Positions 28,814 through 37,236 of a stretch of DNA of 39,304 bases are shown piece by piece. A program made the translations under genes and the position numbers. The stretch's first letter is position 1; each line of letters begins with the position of its first letter. The notes below the pieces were generated by a model that saw only the letters and a program-made list of their open reading frames with translations, was not told the DNA's origin and did no database searches. The stretch lies in contig JAJZPC010000020.1 of assembly GCA_021811385.1 (NCBI GenBank), positions 1 to 39,304 of the forward strand. Reading direction: 5' to 3'. The DNA comes from Deltaproteobacteria bacterium (GTDB taxonomy: Bacteria > Desulfobacterota > Desulfobulbia > Desulfobulbales > Desulfurivibrionaceae).

Positions 28814-28970
28814 CACCGGGGCAGGGCCAGCCGCCCTTTCCATTTTGCCCTGTCCGGGGGCGCGGACGCAACCTGCTTGCTCCCCGCCGGACCTTGGCGT
28901 ATACTATCGGAGTGGAGTTGCTGATCCGCTCCGAAACCATATTGCCAAAGGTCCGACCGAGCCTGCCATC

Positions 28971-30203
28971 ATGATCAAGAAGGTTGCCATCGAAGAGCTC
29001 CAGCCCGGCATGCATATCGAGCGTTTTGATTGCGGTTGGCTGGATCACCCCTTTATCTTCAACAGCAAACGGATCAAGAGCGAGGGAGAGATAGAACGCC
29101 TCAAAGACTGGGGCGTCACCCACGTTTACATTGAGGACGGCCACAACCCACCCCCGGTCCCGGTCAAAATCGAACGGGAAAGACCTCCGCCGCCGGTGGT
29201 GGCGTTCGAGCACATCGTCACCCCGCAGACCGCGCGGGTTGATCGCGAGCTCAGACATATCCCGATCCGCCATGAGATTGTCCGGGCTCAAAAGGTACGG
29301 CAGCGGGCCAGCCAGGCCGCGAAGAACATCCTGGCCGACGTGCGGGCCGGAAAAAAGATCCAGACCAGGGAGGCCGAGACCGCGGTAGGCGAGCTGGACA
29401 ACTCCATCTGCCACAACAAGGACGCGTTGTTCCTGCTCATGCGCTTGCGCAAGAAGGATGAATACACCTTCGACCATTCGGTGAGCGTGGGCGTGCTGCT
29501 CCTGGCTTTCTGCCGGGCCATGGGCTTTGACCAGGAAACCACCCGGACCATCGGGTTGGGCGGACTGTTGCATGACGTGGGCAAGATGGCCGTGCCCCTG
29601 TCCATCCTCAACAAACCAGGCTCCCTCAACGACGACGAGTTTAAAAAAATCCAACAGCATGTCATCTATTGCAAGGAAATCCTGGCCACCACCCACAACA
29701 TCTCCCTGCCCGTGGCCCAGATCGCCATGGAACACCATGAACGGTTCGACGGCTCCGGCTATCCCCACGGCCTGAGCGGGGAGTCCATCAGCCTGGGCGG
29801 GCAGATGGCTGCCATTACCGATGTCTTCGACGCCCTGACCTCGGACCGCTGCTACCGCACCGGCATCGACCAGGTCGAGGTGCTGCGCAAGCTCTACGGC
29901 TGGAGCCGCAACCATTTCAACGAAGAACTGGTGCACCGCTTCATCCGGTGCATCGGCGTCTATCCGGCCGGCACCCTGGTTCAGCTGGAAAGCGGTCTGC
30001 TCGGCGTGGTGGTGGAATCGACCGACAACCTGCTGCGCCCGGTGGTGCGCCTCATCTACGACACCAGGCACGACTGGGCGGTCAGCCAAAAGGACATCGA
30101 TCTCTCCAAGCCCCATGGCAAGGGCGGCGAGGATCGGATCATCGGCTATGAGTCCGCCAAACGCTGGCGGATCAATCCCCTCAAGGTTCTCGGCATCACC
30201 TGA
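28971..30203 (+). CDS. HD-GYP cyclic-di-GMP phosphodiesterase with DUF3391 N-terminus
   Basis: 410 aa. The N-terminal 60-130 residues match DUF3391 (MIKKVAIEELQPGM, WLDHPFIFNS). The HD-GYP domain has the conserved residues: H169 (FDHS), HD at 201-202 (GLLHDVGK), H230, HH at 255-256, and the GYP motif in HHERFDGSGYP. It should hydrolyse cyclic di-GMP to pGpG/GMP. The frame is open upstream, but the conserved N-terminal domain begins exactly at ATG 28971. The ribosome site is weak. Confidence 0.93.
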   Translation: MIKKVAIEELQPGMHIERFDCGWLDHPFIFNSKRIKSEGEIERLKDWGVTHVYIEDGHNPPPVPVKIERERPPPPVVAFEHIVTPQTARVDRELRHIPIRHEIVRAQKVRQRASQAAKNILADVRAGKKIQTREAETAVGELDNSICHNKDALFLLMRLRKKDEYTFDHSVSVGVLLLAFCRAMGFDQETTRTIGLGGLLHDVGKMAVPLSILNKPGSLNDDEFKKIQQHVIYCKEILATTHNISLPVAQIAMEHHERFDGSGYPHGLSGESISLGGQMAAITDVFDALTSDRCYRTGIDQVEVLRKLYGWSRNHFNEELVHRFIRCIGVYPAGTLVQLESGLLGVVVESTDNLLRPVVRLIYDTRHDWAVSQKDIDLSKPHGKGGEDRIIGYESAKRWRINPLKVLGIT

Positions 30204-30336: not shown

Positions 30337-30684
30337 ATGAACCATTGCGATCTTGCGGAAAACTGCTTTTTCTTCGCGGTGCGCGAAGAAGGGAGGGAGA
30401 TGCGCGAATACTTGACGGGACTCTACTGCACTGGGAACTTCAGCGATTGCGCACGGTACAGGGCAACGATGGATATGGGACAGAGACCGGTGCCGGACGA
30501 CATCTTCCCGAACGAGGATATTTTCGTAAGCCTTTTCGCCTGGGCCTTCAACCAACGGCAAATCCCGGTCAGCAAACAGCGCCGGACCCGGTGCCCTGGC
30601 AGGCTGCCAGTTTCCGCGCCAGAAAAGACCGCAGCATCTTCCGGACATCTTCCTCCAACCCGTCAAACTCACAACCAACGCTGA
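30337..30684 (+). CDS. Small Cys-containing protein with antisense overlap
   Basis: 115 aa. The start MNHCDLAENCFFF, then YCTGNFSDCARYRATMD and DIFPNEDIF, resembles a small Desulfobacterota family (CDxAExCxFF ... C..xxxxxCARY) whose function is unknown; four Cys could bind metal. GGGGA precedes ATG 30337. From about residue 78 the sequence turns Arg/Pro/Ser-rich and runs 116 bases into the convergent PilZ gene, so this tail is probably not native and the original stop may have been lost. Confidence 0.6.
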   Translation: MNHCDLAENCFFFAVREEGREMREYLTGLYCTGNFSDCARYRATMDMGQRPVPDDIFPNEDIFVSLFAWAFNQRQIPVSKQRRTRCPGRLPVSAPEKTAASSGHLPPTRQTHNQR

Positions 30685-30979
30685 CATTGCTCACCATCGG
30701 ATGGTCCAGCACCCAGCGCACGGTAAGCGGCATGGCCCTGTCGCACAAGAAATCATCCCCTTCGCTAAGCCGGGCAAGGACAAGCTGACGCCCAGGCTCC
30801 AGGGAATTCCACTCCTCCCGTTTCAAGATGAAGTGGATCCCCCCAAGACTCAGGTCAAGAATCAGGGCGGAAAAGGAAAACTGCCCGAAATCCGGAAAAA
30901 CGAAAACCCCGCGGATATTCTCTCCCGGGGAAAAGTACACCCGCGTTTCTTTTCTTTTCTCATGAAAACCGCCGGCCAT
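30569..30979 (-). CDS. PilZ-domain protein
   Basis: 136 aa. KRKETRVYF supplies the N-terminal basic RxxxR-type motif, and ILDLSLGGIHF the D/NxSxxG motif; together they bind cyclic di-GMP in PilZ proteins. It starts at the second ATG (30979), spaced 5-6 bases from AGGGAG; a TTG further upstream is unlikely. Neighbours include HD-GYP and GGDEF-EAL genes, so it is a likely local c-di-GMP receptor. Confidence 0.85.
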   Translation of the reverse strand: MAGGFHEKRKETRVYFSPGENIRGVFVFPDFGQFSFSALILDLSLGGIHFILKREEWNSLEPGRQLVLARLSEGDDFLCDRAMPLTVRWVLDHPMVSNVSVGCEFDGLEEDVRKMLRSFLARKLAACQGTGSGAVC

Positions 30980-31117
30980 CATCTTCTCCCTCGCGGCCCG
31001 GGCAGATATACCTCCCAACCCCTGGCCATCATTACCTAATTTTCCCCTCTGCTTTCATTTTTATATCTGGGGCCGCTTTTTTTGGCAAGCCCTACCTCGA
31101 ACAGATGGTCTTAGGAA

Positions 31118-31478: not shown

Positions 31479-32576
31479 GTGATCGATCCTGCCGCCATCG
31501 CCCGACAGTTCGCCTTTCCCGGCGAGGTTCTCACCGTGCGCGAGTACGGGTCCGGCAATGTGAACGACACCTATCTGGTGCGGGTCGCGGACACCGAGGC
31601 CGTCCGCGACTTCATCCTGCAACGCCTCAATCCCCATGTATTTCCGCACCCCGAACGGATCATGCACAACCTCCGGGTGCTCGACGACCATGTCCGACCC
31701 AAATTGCCGGCGCAGCCAAACCGCCGCTGGGAGCTGCCACGGATCATCCCCACCCGGACCGGCGCTGATTATCACCGGGATCCGGACAGCGCCTTGTGGC
31801 GGGCCCAGAGCTTTATCGCCGACACAGAGAGTTTCGATGCCATCGCCGACGTTTCCCAGGCCGAAGAGGCAGGGAGGGGGCTGGGGTTCTTCCATGGGCT
31901 GATCCATGACCTGCCCGTGCATCTGCTGCACGACACCCTGCCAGGCTTCCATGTCACCCCCGGCTATCTGGCCCGGTATACGGCGCTGGCCACAGCCCCC
32001 CCCAGGCCCGACCCGTCACCGGAAGCGCTTTTCTGCCACCGCTTCATCGCCGAGCGAAAAGAAGCGGCCGGGGTGCTCGAAGCCGCGCACCTGCGGGGTG
32101 AACTGCCCGCCTGCCCCATCCACGGCGACCCCAAGCTGGCCAATATCCTCTTTGCCCGCGATACCGGCCAGGCGATCAGCCTCATCGATCTGGACACGGT
32201 CAAGCCCGGACTGCTCCATTACGACATCGGCGACTGCCTCCGCTCCTGCTGCAACCCGGCCGGGGAAGACGCGAACCCGGCCAAGGTTTCCTTCAACCTC
32301 GCCTGCTGCGCCGCCATCCTCCGGGGATACCTGCCCCAGGTCGCCCCGTTTTTTTCCGTGGCCGACTATCACTACATCTATGACGCCGTCCGGATCATCG
32401 CCTTTGAGCTTGGCTTGCGCTTTTTCTCCGACCATCTGGCCGGCGATCTCTATTTCCGGATCAAAAGACCGGGCCATAACCTGCGCCGGGCAATGGTCCA
32501 GTTCGCCCTCTGTCGCAGCGTCGAAGCGCAGGAGGCGGAGATCAGAGCCATTGTCAGGGATCTCCAAAAACCATGA
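31479..32576 (+). CDS. N-acetylhexosamine 1-kinase-like (aminoglycoside phosphotransferase fold)
   Basis: 365 aa, the length of bifidobacterial NahK. Matches to NahK run along the whole chain: YGSGNVNDTYLV, ILQRLNPHVFPHPERIMHN, IHGDPKLANILF (catalytic loop with Asp and Asn), LIDLDTVKPG (metal-binding Asp), LRFFSDHLAGDLYF. NahK phosphorylates the anomeric carbon of GlcNAc/GalNAc. The start is GTG 31479, 22 bases after the cupin stop. The ATGA overlap with the next gene couples it to the DOMON-like protein. A lacto-N-biose phosphorylase, the usual NahK partner, is absent, so substrate and pathway are open. Confidence 0.85.
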   Translation: MIDPAAIARQFAFPGEVLTVREYGSGNVNDTYLVRVADTEAVRDFILQRLNPHVFPHPERIMHNLRVLDDHVRPKLPAQPNRRWELPRIIPTRTGADYHRDPDSALWRAQSFIADTESFDAIADVSQAEEAGRGLGFFHGLIHDLPVHLLHDTLPGFHVTPGYLARYTALATAPPRPDPSPEALFCHRFIAERKEAAGVLEAAHLRGELPACPIHGDPKLANILFARDTGQAISLIDLDTVKPGLLHYDIGDCLRSCCNPAGEDANPAKVSFNLACCAAILRGYLPQVAPFFSVADYHYIYDAVRIIAFELGLRFFSDHLAGDLYFRIKRPGHNLRRAMVQFALCRSVEAQEAEIRAIVRDLQKP

Positions 32577-33100
32577 CCACCTTCAGCCTGCATCCCTTTC
32601 CAGGCCAGGATCCCGGCGGGATGACCGTCCAGGGCGGTATCGAGCGCACGGGCCGGATCATCGTGCTTTCCTTTCTCCTGCAAGGGAACCTGCGCGATCT
32701 CGTTTTGCCGCCGCCAACACCCGATCGGCAACGGTGCGACAACCTCTGGCAATCCACCTGCCTTGAGATGTTCTGGGCTGAAGAGGGACGAAAAAATTAT
32801 TGGGAACTGAACCTTGCCCCGAGCGGGGGTTGGAATGTTTACGCTTTTACCGATTACCGCACAGACATGCGCCGGGAAGAGCGGATTGCCGAACCGCTTG
32901 TCACAATGCAGGCCACACCGGACACCTTCTCCCTGACCACCGAAGTGGAGATCGGCAATCTCCGGACACGTCCCCCCCTCCGGGTTGGAATCAGCGGCGT
33001 TCTCCAACATCGGGATAACCGGCTGAGCTACTGGGCTCTTGCCCACCCGGAAGAGAGACCCGACTTTCACGCGCCCCATGCCTTTCTCCTGCGGGTATGA
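32573..33100 (+). CDS. DOMON-like domain protein
   Basis: 175 aa, predicted all-beta. LWQSTCLEMFWAE, YWELNLAPSGGWNVYAF and DYRTDMRR are characteristic of a DOMON-like family of uncharacterised cytoplasmic proteins related to CBM9 carbohydrate-binding folds. There is no signal peptide, so it acts in the cytoplasm. It overlaps the kinase gene by 4 bases (ATGA). A sugar-binding role beside a sugar kinase is inferred. Confidence 0.8.
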   Translation: MTTFSLHPFPGQDPGGMTVQGGIERTGRIIVLSFLLQGNLRDLVLPPPTPDRQRCDNLWQSTCLEMFWAEEGRKNYWELNLAPSGGWNVYAFTDYRTDMRREERIAEPLVTMQATPDTFSLTTEVEIGNLRTRPPLRVGISGVLQHRDNRLSYWALAHPEERPDFHAPHAFLLRV

Positions 33101-33317: not shown

Positions 33318-34934
33318 ATGATCCAACATATTTTTTCCATTTCCATGGTCGTTATCGGCATCATCCTGCTGATCAGCGCCCTGAATCCGGTTCACCTGAT
33401 TCGCCGTTTCGACAAGGAAAACCGCACCGGCTGGAATACCCTGTTCATTCTCATCCATTTTTTCGTCCTCGGCTACACCACCTTCTGCTACTTCCTTTTC
33501 CGCCCCCGGATCACCTTCGGCGATTTTGTCGTCGCCCTCATCCTGTTCGGCGGCAGCATCTTTGTGGTTATCGTTGTCCGCCTGAGCCGATCCTCCATCG
33601 ACAACATCAACAGAATCGCCGCCCTGGAACGGCACAACGCCCTCCATGACGACCTCACCGGCCTGCCCAACAGGGCCCTTCTGCTGGAACGCATCAACCA
33701 GTTGATCCTGCATGCCAAACGGGATTTGCAACCACTGGCGATTCTGGTCATGGATCTGAACCGCTTCAAGGAAATAAACGACGCCCTGGGCCATCACTAC
33801 GGCGACTTTCTCCTGCAGAAGGTGGCGGAGCGGCTGCAGGAAGTCATCCGCGAGTCCGATACCCTGGCCCGCTTGGGCGGCGATGAATTCTCCGTGGCCT
33901 TGGCCGCGGACGCGGAACAGGCCAAGATCGTTTCCCAAAAAATTTCCGAAACCCTGCAACAGCCGTTCATCATTGAAGGGCATAGCCTCAACATCGGCAT
34001 CAGTATCGGCATCGCCATCTATCCTGCGCATGGAATCGATTGCGACACCCTGCTCCAGCACGCCGATGTCGCCATGTATTCGGCCAAGAAAACCGAAACC
34101 CACTACGCGCTTTACGACGATTCCCAGGACCAGTTCACCCTCAACCGCTTGATGCTGCTGACCGATCTCCGCGAAGCGGTGCGGAAGGAAGAACACCTGA
34201 CTCTCCATTTCCAGCCCAAGATCGACGCCAAACACAGCCGGATTCATGGCGTGGAGGCGTTGCTCCGCTGGAACCATCCGGAACTGGGCATGATCGCGCC
34301 GGACCAGTTCATCCCTCTGGCGGAACAGGGCGGCATCATTCGCTCCTTGAGCAAATGGGTGCTCAATGCCGCGCTCGCCCAGCGGGCGGCATGGCGCGAT
34401 GCGGGGCTCGACATCCCCGTTTCCGTCAATCTTTCGATCAAGAACCTGCAGGACATCTCCGTTCCCTTGCTGATCAAGGATTTGCTCAAGAAATATCAGC
34501 TGGCGCCGTCCGATCTGATGCTGGAAATCACCGAAACCAGCATGATGCTCGACCCGGACCGGACCTACGAAGTCATCTCGAACCTCCACGCCCTTGGCGT
34601 GCAGCTGTCAATCGATGATTTCGGCACCGGCTATTCATCCCTGGCCTACCTCAAGCAGCTGCCCGCCGAAGAACTGAAGATCGACAAATCATTTGTCAGA
34701 AACATGCTCAAGGACGACAACGACGAAGTCATTGTCCGGGCCACCATCGATCTGGCCAAAAACATGGGGCTTGAAGTAATCGCCGAAGGGGTGGAATCGG
34801 CGGAGATAATGACCAGGCTGCAGGAGCTGGATTGCGACCTGGCGCAGGGGTATTACATCTGCAAGCCCCTGCCGGCAAAAGAACTGGAGGAATGGTTGAG
34901 GACTTCCCCTTACTCGGTTCCAGGCTCCCCCTGA
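33318..34934 (+). CDS. Membrane GGDEF-EAL c-di-GMP bifunctional enzyme
   Basis: 538 aa. Three transmembrane helices (about 5-25, 40-62, 68-90) precede a GGDEF domain with GGDEF intact (187-191) and an RxxD I-site (R178, D181) exactly 5 residues before it. The EAL domain has EAL (313-315), VNLS (N371), LEITE (E403, E406), DDFGTG (433-438), K454, EGVE (490-493) and QGY (510-512). All residues for both c-di-GMP synthesis and hydrolysis are present, so activity direction cannot be read from sequence. There is no PAS domain. The start is ATG 33318; the ribosome site is weak. Confidence 0.93.
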   Translation: MIQHIFSISMVVIGIILLISALNPVHLIRRFDKENRTGWNTLFILIHFFVLGYTTFCYFLFRPRITFGDFVVALILFGGSIFVVIVVRLSRSSIDNINRIAALERHNALHDDLTGLPNRALLLERINQLILHAKRDLQPLAILVMDLNRFKEINDALGHHYGDFLLQKVAERLQEVIRESDTLARLGGDEFSVALAADAEQAKIVSQKISETLQQPFIIEGHSLNIGISIGIAIYPAHGIDCDTLLQHADVAMYSAKKTETHYALYDDSQDQFTLNRLMLLTDLREAVRKEEHLTLHFQPKIDAKHSRIHGVEALLRWNHPELGMIAPDQFIPLAEQGGIIRSLSKWVLNAALAQRAAWRDAGLDIPVSVNLSIKNLQDISVPLLIKDLLKKYQLAPSDLMLEITETSMMLDPDRTYEVISNLHALGVQLSIDDFGTGYSSLAYLKQLPAEELKIDKSFVRNMLKDDNDEVIVRATIDLAKNMGLEVIAEGVESAEIMTRLQELDCDLAQGYYICKPLPAKELEEWLRTSPYSVPGSP

Positions 34935-35040
34935 TTACGGCCGGGAAGCTCCACGCCTTTCTCCTCCGGAAACACCTCCCTCCCCCCTGCCCCGCAAATC
35001 TCCATGGCGATGCGCCGTCCAGGTCCGTAAAAAACTTGCC

Positions 35041-36519
35041 ATGCGCCCGAGCGGTATATATCCTAAGCTGACAGCCCGCAATTTCAGCCAGGAGCAGACA
35101 GACACGGTGAGCACGGAGATTCCCAAAACCATCGGCCGGTACCGCGTTGTGCGACAAATCGGCCTGGGCGCCATGGGCGAGGTCTATCTTGCCCTTGACG
35201 AACTCATCCACCGCAAGGTCGCCGTCAAATGCATGCGGGTGGACCGCTGCAAAAACGAGCAGAAACGGCAGAAAGCCATGGAGTCCTTTCTGCACGAGGC
35301 CCGCATTGCCGGAAACCTCGACCACAGCCACATCGCGGCGGTGTACGATATCGGGGTGCAAGACAACGCCCCTTACATCGTCATGGAGTATATCGAAGGC
35401 GGCAACATCAAGGAGCTGATCCGCGGCAAGGCCCCTTTCCCCATCGAGGAAAAACTCAGCCTCATCGCCATGGTGGCCCGCGCCCTGCATTTTGCCCATA
35501 AGCGGGGCATCCTCCACCGGGATATCAAGCCTGCCAACATCATGATCCTGAAGCAGAGCCGCCTGCCCAAGATCACCGACTTCGGCATCGCCCGGGTGCT
35601 GGACACCGCTTCCTTCGGCAACATCGAAGGCAATATCGACGAGGCGGGCTTGATCCCAGGCACGCCGTTGTATATGTCGCCGGAGCAAATCCGGGGCGAG
35701 GAGCTGGACACGCGCAGCGACATCTTCTCCCTGGGGGTGCTCGCCTACGAATGGCTCAGCGGCGAAAAGCCCTTTGCCGGGCAGGATCTCAATGGTCGCC
35801 TGCAATCCGTGCTCACGGACACGCCGAAACCGCTCACCGATTTTCCCGGCATCGATCCCGAGATCAACAGCATCGTCATGCGGGCCCTGGCCAAGCCAAA
35901 GGGGGAGCGCTACCAGAGCGCCGACGAGTTCGGGGACACCCTGGAGCTCTATCTCAACTCCATGGAAAAGAAAAAAAGCGGGGAAAAAACGAGTTTTTCC
36001 TTTGATAAAAAGGAGATCGTCGAGCGGTTGCGGCAGCGCTACCCCTTTTTTGCCGATTTCAGCGAAGAGGAGCTGTACGAGCTGTTCCGCGCCTCCTGCA
36101 AGGAGGAGTTTGCCATGGGCGACTACCTTCTCCGCGAAGGCGCCTCGGGCGCCAAGATGTACATCATCATTTCCGGCGCCGTTATCGTGCTCACCGAAAC
36201 AGAAGGCAAGCGGGTGGAGCTGGAAACCCTGCGGGATGGCAGCTGCGTGGGAGAGATGTCGATGATCGACCACATGCCGCGCTCCGCCTCGGTGGTGGCG
36301 TTCAAGAAAACCGTGGCCCTGGCCTTGAATGAAACGGTCCTGCGCCACAACAACCCCAAGCTCTGCCTCAAGCTCTACCGGAACCTGGCCACCACCCTGT
36401 CGGAACGGCTGCGGGCCAGCGAAGCCAAGTATCTGACCCTGCTGGCCACCCACCATGCCTGGGGAAAAGAATGGCGTGGAGTCAACAGGGCAGGGGTCGA
36501 GGCTAGGCAGAACGACTAG
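35041..36519 (+). CDS. Ser/Thr protein kinase fused to C-terminal cyclic-nucleotide-binding domain
   Basis: 492 aa. The Hanks kinase (31-305) is complete: Gly loop GLGAMGEVYL, VAVK (K63), HRD (159-161), DFG (180-182), and SPEQ in the activation segment. After a Lys-rich linker (309-322) comes a CNB domain (about 340-440) with the phosphate-binding cassette: G404-E405 then P413-R414-S-A, so both the ribose-binding Glu and phosphate-binding Arg are retained. The kinase is not membrane-anchored. It probably phosphorylates targets in response to cAMP/cGMP or a related nucleotide. The start is uncertain: ATG 35041 has no ribosome site, and GTG 35107 follows AGGAG with a long spacer; both precede the kinase domain. 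Confidence 0.9.
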   Translation: MRPSGIYPKLTARNFSQEQTDTVSTEIPKTIGRYRVVRQIGLGAMGEVYLALDELIHRKVAVKCMRVDRCKNEQKRQKAMESFLHEARIAGNLDHSHIAAVYDIGVQDNAPYIVMEYIEGGNIKELIRGKAPFPIEEKLSLIAMVARALHFAHKRGILHRDIKPANIMILKQSRLPKITDFGIARVLDTASFGNIEGNIDEAGLIPGTPLYMSPEQIRGEELDTRSDIFSLGVLAYEWLSGEKPFAGQDLNGRLQSVLTDTPKPLTDFPGIDPEINSIVMRALAKPKGERYQSADEFGDTLELYLNSMEKKKSGEKTSFSFDKKEIVERLRQRYPFFADFSEEELYELFRASCKEEFAMGDYLLREGASGAKMYIIISGAVIVLTETEGKRVELETLRDGSCVGEMSMIDHMPRSASVVAFKKTVALALNETVLRHNNPKLCLKLYRNLATTLSERLRASEAKYLTLLATHHAWGKEWRGVNRAGVEARQND

Positions 36520-36592: not shown

Positions 36593-36621
36593 TTGACAGT
36601 ATCCCACAAAAATTCTACACT
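36593..36621 (+). promoter_or_regulatory. Near-consensus sigma-70 promoter for VapBC-type module
   Basis: TTGACA, 17 bp, TACACT. The -35 is perfect and the spacer optimal. It lies 35 bp before the antitoxin ATG. Confidence 0.75.
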
Positions 36622-36655: not shown

Positions 36656-36862
36656 ATGCAAGCAACCATCTCAAGCAAATATCAGGTAGTCATCCCCAAG
36701 CCGGTCAGAGAGCATCTGCATCTTAAACCGCAACAGAAGCTCACAATCCTGGAAAAGGACAGGATGCTCATCCTCGTGCCCCAGGTCTCTCTCGATGAGT
36801 TGCGCGGCATCGCCGTCGGCGCGGCAACCGATGGCTTCCGGGAAAAAAAGGACCGCTTCTGA
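36656..36862 (+). CDS. AbrB/SpoVT-type antitoxin (VapB-like)
   Basis: 68 aa. ISSKYQVVIPKPVREHLHLKPQQKL is the swapped-hairpin AbrB DNA-binding fold, and the C-terminal tail (TDGFREKKDRF) is what would wrap into the toxin. It represses its own promoter in such modules. GGAG precedes ATG 36656 with proper spacing; the longer upstream frame is rejected. The stop overlaps the toxin ATG by one base (TGATG). Confidence 0.88.
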   Translation: MQATISSKYQVVIPKPVREHLHLKPQQKLTILEKDRMLILVPQVSLDELRGIAVGAATDGFREKKDRF

Positions 36863-37236
36863 TGATCATCGTCGATTCCTGCGGCTGGCTGGAGTGGTTC
36901 ACCGACGGCGTGCTGGCCGACAGTTACAAAAAATATCTCGCGGACCCGGACAACCTCCTGGTGCCTGCCATCGTCCTCTACGAGGTCTACAAGGTTCTCA
37001 AGCGGGGGGCCGGGGAAGAAAAGGCGCTGCTCGCCGCCGGGTATATGCGAAGCTCCCGGCTAATTCCGTTTGACGATACGCTTGCGCTCGCCGCTGCGGA
37101 TATCGCTCTGCAAAAAAAACTCGCCATGGCTGATGCCATCATTGTGGCGGTATCCAAAGCGTATAATTGCAGGATCATCTCCTCGGATGCCGACCTGAAA
37201 GATTTCGACAATGTGGACTATATCCAGAAAACATAA
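36862..37236 (+). CDS. PIN-domain toxin (VapC-like)
   Basis: 124 aa. The PIN acidic quartet is present: D5 (IIVDSCGW), E41 (LYEVYK), D91 (MADAII) and D109 (SSDADL). By family knowledge it is a Mg-dependent ribonuclease cutting tRNA or rRNA, neutralised by the adjacent antitoxin. It starts with the last base of the antitoxin stop codon. No regulatory gene lies between. Confidence 0.9.
   Translation: MIIVDSCGWLEWFTDGVLADSYKKYLADPDNLLVPAIVLYEVYKVLKRGAGEEKALLAAGYMRSSRLIPFDDTLALAAADIALQKKLAMADAIIVAVSKAYNCRIISSDADLKDFDNVDYIQKT

Follow-up and report, generated by a model that had tools for sequence, protein, structure and literature searches.

A PknB-like Ser/Thr kinase with a C-terminal cyclic-nucleotide-binding domain and an acidic activation loop, probably regulated by cAMP

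The window, by which we mean the whole stretch of 39,304 nucleotides that was analyzed, contains a gene encoding a Ser/Thr kinase domain and a cyclic-nucleotide-binding (CNB) domain in one reading frame (Table 1). The sequence-only reading had placed the start of this gene at ATG 35041. However, this codon was not conserved among the orthologues, and its A forms the 3′ end of the -35 hexamer in a promoter-like element that is kept 5′ of the kinase gene across the genus, as seen in the alignment of the upstream regions (n=7). The preferred start, GTG 35107, follows an AGGAG sequence after 12 bases and is located exactly eight codons 5′ of the motif IGRY. Of the 11 orthologues read at this place, 10 have a start codon at this spacing (GTG in nine, ATG in one) and L021 lacks it; in two orthologues, stops interrupt the frame upstream of the GTG position. 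Because of the conserved start and AGGAG, the upstream stops and the location of ATG 35041 inside the promoter-like element, the protein is read here as 470 amino acids from GTG 35107. Residue numbers are counted from this GTG, and Pfam ranges are given for the 492-amino-acid reading from ATG 35041.

Table 1. Features of the kinase-CNB locus with their positions in the window and the evidence for them.
Feature	Position	Strand	Basis or remark
HD-GYP gene	about 28965-30203		Several genes from the kinase, syntenic
PilZ gene	30569-31018	-	Several genes from the kinase, syntenic, opposite strand
APH-family gene and ORF without Pfam match	31479..33100	+	Conserved upstream neighbours of the kinase; Pfam, synteny in 6 genus loci
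GGDEF-EAL gene	33318..34934	+	Accessory neighbour, outside the conserved locus
Promoter-like element TTGCCA-N17-TATCCT	35036..35064	+	Alignment of 7 upstream regions; consensus scan, 9/12 matches
Ribosome-binding site AGGAG	35090..35094	+	Spacing to the start shared by most orthologues of the genus
Kinase-CNB gene, GTG start, 470 aa + stop	35107..36519	+	Pfam, start-codon conservation, alignments
PknB-like Hanks Ser/Thr kinase domain, residues 10-280 (K41, H137-R138-D139, D158-F159-G160)	35134..35946	+	Pfam PF00069, invariant residues, best solved match PknB
Asp178-Glu179 at the place of PknB Thr171-Gln172	35638..35643	+	HMMER alignment to PknB; count over 134 kinases
CNB beta-barrel and flanking helices, residues 301-416	36007..36354	+	Pfam PF00027, AlphaFold2 model, solved CNB relatives
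Phosphate-binding cassette GEMSMIDHMPRSASVVA with Glu383 and Arg392	36250..36300	+	Invariance in 20 relatives; fits published consensus
Long C-terminal helix, residues 417-455	36355..36471	+	AlphaFold2; one helix, confidence drops past about residue 440

The kinase domain was recognized by Pfam as PF00069 (Pkinase; residues 34-260, E 3.5e-50), and its best solved match was PknB of M. tuberculosis (E 8.6e-54). At E 1e-30, 21 distinct solved sequences were matched; PknB, StkP, and PknA were on top and no PKG was among them, so by these matches the domain is not an AGC-type kinase as in PKG. The catalytic lysine K41, the H137-R138-D139 triad, and D158-F159 of the DFG motif were invariant in 20 aligned relatives. 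Thus, the complete Hanks kinase of the sequence-only reading was found intact, its K63 being K41 in the GTG numbering. The fold with the catalytic Lys, HRD, and DFG places the domain among the Hanks-type (PknB-like) kinases; the regulatory loop threonine, which is typical of these kinases but not strictly defining, is occupied by Asp178. With the PASTA-containing PknB/Stk1 family (NF033483) the protein scored 280 bits, below the cut-off of 450, the match covering only residues 32-315. The idea of a pseudokinase or a non-functional remnant can practically be dismissed, as none of the aligned relatives has lost a catalytic motif and the orthologues have an intact reading frame; nothing was found in its favour, the host genome assembly being 75% complete.

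The CNB domain was identified as PF00027 (cNMP_binding) at residues 355-434 with an E-value of 4e-17 and 62.4 bits, the gathering threshold being 27.5. Its phosphate-binding cassette, GEMSMIDHMPRSASVVA, is close to the consensus GEMALLDGEPRSATVVA published for the 'Other_bacterial' CNB group (PMC2246266). The glutamate and arginine said earlier to be retained are Glu383 and Arg392, which were invariant in 20 of 20 aligned kinase-CNB proteins from several phyla and were also kept when the cassette was aligned to PKG sites and to the bacterial consensus. The AlphaFold2 model, built with 13 sequences, reached a mean pLDDT of 80.5 and a pTM of 0.68, with both domains at moderate to good confidence, a low-confidence linker at residues 292-300, and a cassette helix at residues 383-388. 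In this model, the long C-terminal helix (residues 417-455) resembles the C-helix of CRP and could possibly have a role in dimerization or as a relay.

The GGDEF-EAL, HD-GYP, and PilZ neighbours named in the sequence-only reading were all found in the window. In six other loci of the genus, the gene order was NlpC, WYL-type regulator, HD-GYP, PilZ, APH, ORF without Pfam match, kinase-CNB, and methyltransferase, of which NlpC, WYL, and methyltransferase were named by eye. Of the seven syntenic loci of the genus, just two, those of the window and L135, have a GGDEF-EAL gene between the ORF without Pfam match and the kinase. A conserved GGDEF-EAL/kinase operon was therefore rejected, the kinase having a promoter-like element of its own. 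The kinase could still be envisaged as a dedicated member of a c-di-GMP module with the GGDEF-EAL, HD-GYP, and PilZ proteins, since HD-GYP and PilZ are syntenic with it in the genus and the window and one relative have GGDEF-EAL adjacent to it. We consider this highly improbable, as GGDEF-EAL is missing beside the kinase in five of the seven loci, the conserved promoter-like element belongs to the kinase itself, PilZ is on the opposite strand, and the nearest conserved neighbours are the APH-family gene and the ORF without Pfam match. The specific link to c-di-GMP proposed earlier is, for the first two of these reasons, weak.

Directly 3′ of the kinase gene, a MazE/AbrB-PIN toxin-antitoxin pair is located at 36656-37236 (+), with a promoter-like TTGACA-N17-TACACT at 36593. 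L133 has a closely related pair and L131 a diverged one (41-43%), and L132, L134, and L136 gave no match. Elsewhere in the host genome, a kinase domain was matched only at G000:C28:31530-34503, next to a PP2C phosphatase gene; no phosphatase was seen adjoining the kinase-CNB gene.

A kinase followed by a CNB domain proved not to be a rare order. When the architecture was searched for across Desulfobacterota, matches spanning both domains were obtained in at least 13 of the 297 genomes of the phylum, the genome of the window counted and the top candidates alone scored. In the family of the window, 12 of the 27 genomes carried an orthologue, one of which was interrupted by a contig end. A scan of genome contigs revealed full-length relatives in a Desulfobulbaceae bacterium (76%) and, at 31-35%, in many Gammaproteobacteria, a Nitrospira, and a betaproteobacterium. 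In the Gammaproteobacteria, the class of L047, matches were found in 45 of the 229 sampled genomes and were nearly all full-length. The full-length alignment of 13 proteins showed a single CNB domain after the kinase in one frame. The order is thus common in Gammaproteobacteria and recurrent in the window's own phylum, and the idea of a single rare fusion was rejected on these results. In several gammaproteobacterial loci (L044-L046, L047, L050, L051, and L054), two kinase-CNB paralogues lie within a few kilobases; those of L047 (2175-7293) flank a glucose-6-phosphate-isomerase-like ORF. The matches listed from a plasmid search were mostly kinase-only; one, to a kinase/MFS fusion, was long but weak.

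In the kinase-domain tree, the clade of the window was placed apart from the other kinase-CNB proteins, and none of the bootstrap trees united both. An AU test with long branches removed did not reject one clade (p 0.134), and therefore we do not claim two independent fusions; judged from the sequences, one or two fusions are possible. Bacterial CNB domains attached to kinases, the type of kinase being unstated, were included in a survey from 2007 (PMC2246266), and the CNB domain is among those joined to the STKs of Planctomycetota (2024; PMC11032199). No statement on CNB kinases was found in the older kinome papers examined, and no experimental work on a bacterial kinase-CNB protein in the open-licence literature.

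The activation loop sets the clade of the window apart. In the HMMER alignment with PknB, NIDEAGLIPGT in the window kinase is paired with SVTQTAAVIGT, a stretch whose threonines we take to be Thr171 and Thr173, so that Asp178 corresponds to Thr171 and Ala180 to Thr173. Both threonines have been reported to be crucial in PknB (PMC2875399). The loop position was located by counting back from the GT/GS motif and was scored in 134 kinases, after exclusion of 10 kinases (nine of them CNB-less) that were off the loop pattern. At the Thr171 equivalent, every CNB-less relative with a readable loop (94 of 94) had Thr or Ser and 23 of the 28 other kinase-CNB proteins had Thr, while in the clade of the window all orthologues with a readable loop (12 of 12) had Asp, always followed by Glu; as close relatives (about 70-89% identical), these 12 represent one evolutionary change, kept since. 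The loop of this clade is 5-6 residues longer than usual, and the equivalence of Asp and Thr depends on the alignment of the downstream GT motif. The Asp-Glu pair may be phosphomimetic, and since it occupies the site of the regulatory threonine of PknB, the kinase may work without loop phosphorylation. The architecture as such is widespread and has already been touched on in surveys; the clade-specific acidic loop is the new feature.

The host genome contains three class III cyclase genes; a CYTH cyclase was not found in it. By reading, two of the encoded cyclases are CHASE2-like and one has an FHA domain. Two have Lys and Thr, one has Lys and Ser, and the catalytic Asn and Arg are kept in all of them, which is the pattern of class IIIb adenylate cyclases. 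CyaB was the closest solved relative of one of the three. Class III cyclases also occur in relatives without the kinase-CNB gene, so the co-occurrence of kinase and cyclase is unspecific. L142 (G000:C26:33500-37500) contains a gene for a class III cyclase whose N-terminus is FHA-like and, just downstream, an HD-GYP-like ORF (FHA and HD-GYP by eye); as FHA could read phosphothreonine, kinase, cAMP, and c-di-GMP signalling might converge here. At another place in the host genome (L004 1372-2913, G000:C62), an MnmE-like gene is closely followed by a gene for a CNB protein whose C-terminal region is HDOD-like (names by eye).

In the cassette of the window, Arg392 is followed by Ser. Ser or Thr at this place is frequent in cGMP-selective kinase sites (PMC6717892), and the closest solved cassette sites are those of apicomplexan PKG domains, both of which would be in favour of cGMP as the physiological ligand. 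However, CRP and Bd1971 carry Ser there too and are both activated by cAMP (PMC6717892), and the host cyclases have residues of the adenylate-cyclase type, which makes cGMP improbable. A cyclic nucleotide is our best guess for the ligand, cAMP being the likeliest because the host cyclases look adenylate-type and the cassette resembles those of CRP and Bd1971. The cyclic-nucleotide gating suggested in the sequence-only reading is plausible in view of the intact cassette and the likely adenylate cyclases of the host. The CNB domain might instead bind another small molecule (a nucleoside or other cyclic nucleotide) or nothing, and act as a dimerization or partner-docking module. CNB folds can switch ligand: CooA is described as a CNB fold with haem as its ligand and the CNB domains of trypanosomatid PKA as binding nucleosides (PMC10959531), and on the strength of the latter the cassette residues are no proof of cNMP binding. 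Such a ligand change, or loss, is an appreciable but minor possibility, as the invariance of Glu383 and Arg392 across phyla fits retained cNMP binding.

We therefore favour, with a probability of roughly 0.55, a soluble Ser/Thr kinase that would be regulated by cAMP. According to this model, cAMP would bind to the C-terminal CNB domain, the cassette would close on the phosphate, and the long C-terminal helix would move, leading the kinase domains to pack or dimerize differently. The ligand would turn the kinase on, activation being preferred to inhibition by about 60:40. As Asp-Glu occupies the site of the regulatory threonine, loop phosphorylation is probably not needed to prime the kinase, and ligand binding, rather than autophosphorylation, would then be the main switch. 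More speculatively, and with less confidence than in cAMP regulation itself, the loss of the loop-phosphorylation switch (Thr to Asp-Glu), direct cAMP gating by the C-terminal CNB domain, and a possibly independent fusion could together amount to a separate, reverse-order PKG-like logic. Should the kinase be gated by its CNB domain, cAMP would act in these bacteria via protein phosphorylation as in eukaryotes, beyond transcription factors of the CRP type. The family is widespread, no biochemistry on it was found in the open literature, and a single small soluble protein of 470 amino acids could be informative.

The closest counterparts are the kinase-CNB proteins of L044-L054, which likewise have a kinase followed by a single terminal CNB domain, a size of about 430-470 amino acids, and an invariant E and R in the cassette. 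They are about 31-35% identical to the window protein and most of them keep Thr at the PknB loop position; compared with the window, the members inspected have no Pro before the cassette Arg and a shorter CNB beta-hairpin. PKG, including that of Plasmodium, also combines CNB and Ser/Thr kinase in one chain with an alignable cassette, but in PKG several CNB domains precede an AGC kinase, whereas the window protein has one CNB domain, C-terminal by Pfam, after a PknB-like kinase; the reversed order pointed out in the sequence-only reading was thus borne out. PknB has a membrane anchor and a PASTA sensor. It carries the regulatory Thr171 and Thr173, in contrast to Asp178 and Ala180 and the CNB domain of the window kinase. 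The 'Other_bacterial' CNB group (PMC2246266) and the CNB-bearing STKs of Planctomycetota (PMC11032199) are counterparts in that a CNB domain is attached to a kinase. Bd1971 of Bdellovibrio (PMC6717892) resembles the window protein in that a CNB domain regulates a fused enzyme and in the Ser at the same cassette position, but its cAMP-sensing CNB domain is N-terminal and its output is an EAL c-di-GMP phosphodiesterase, while in the window protein the CNB domain is C-terminal and the enzyme is a kinase.
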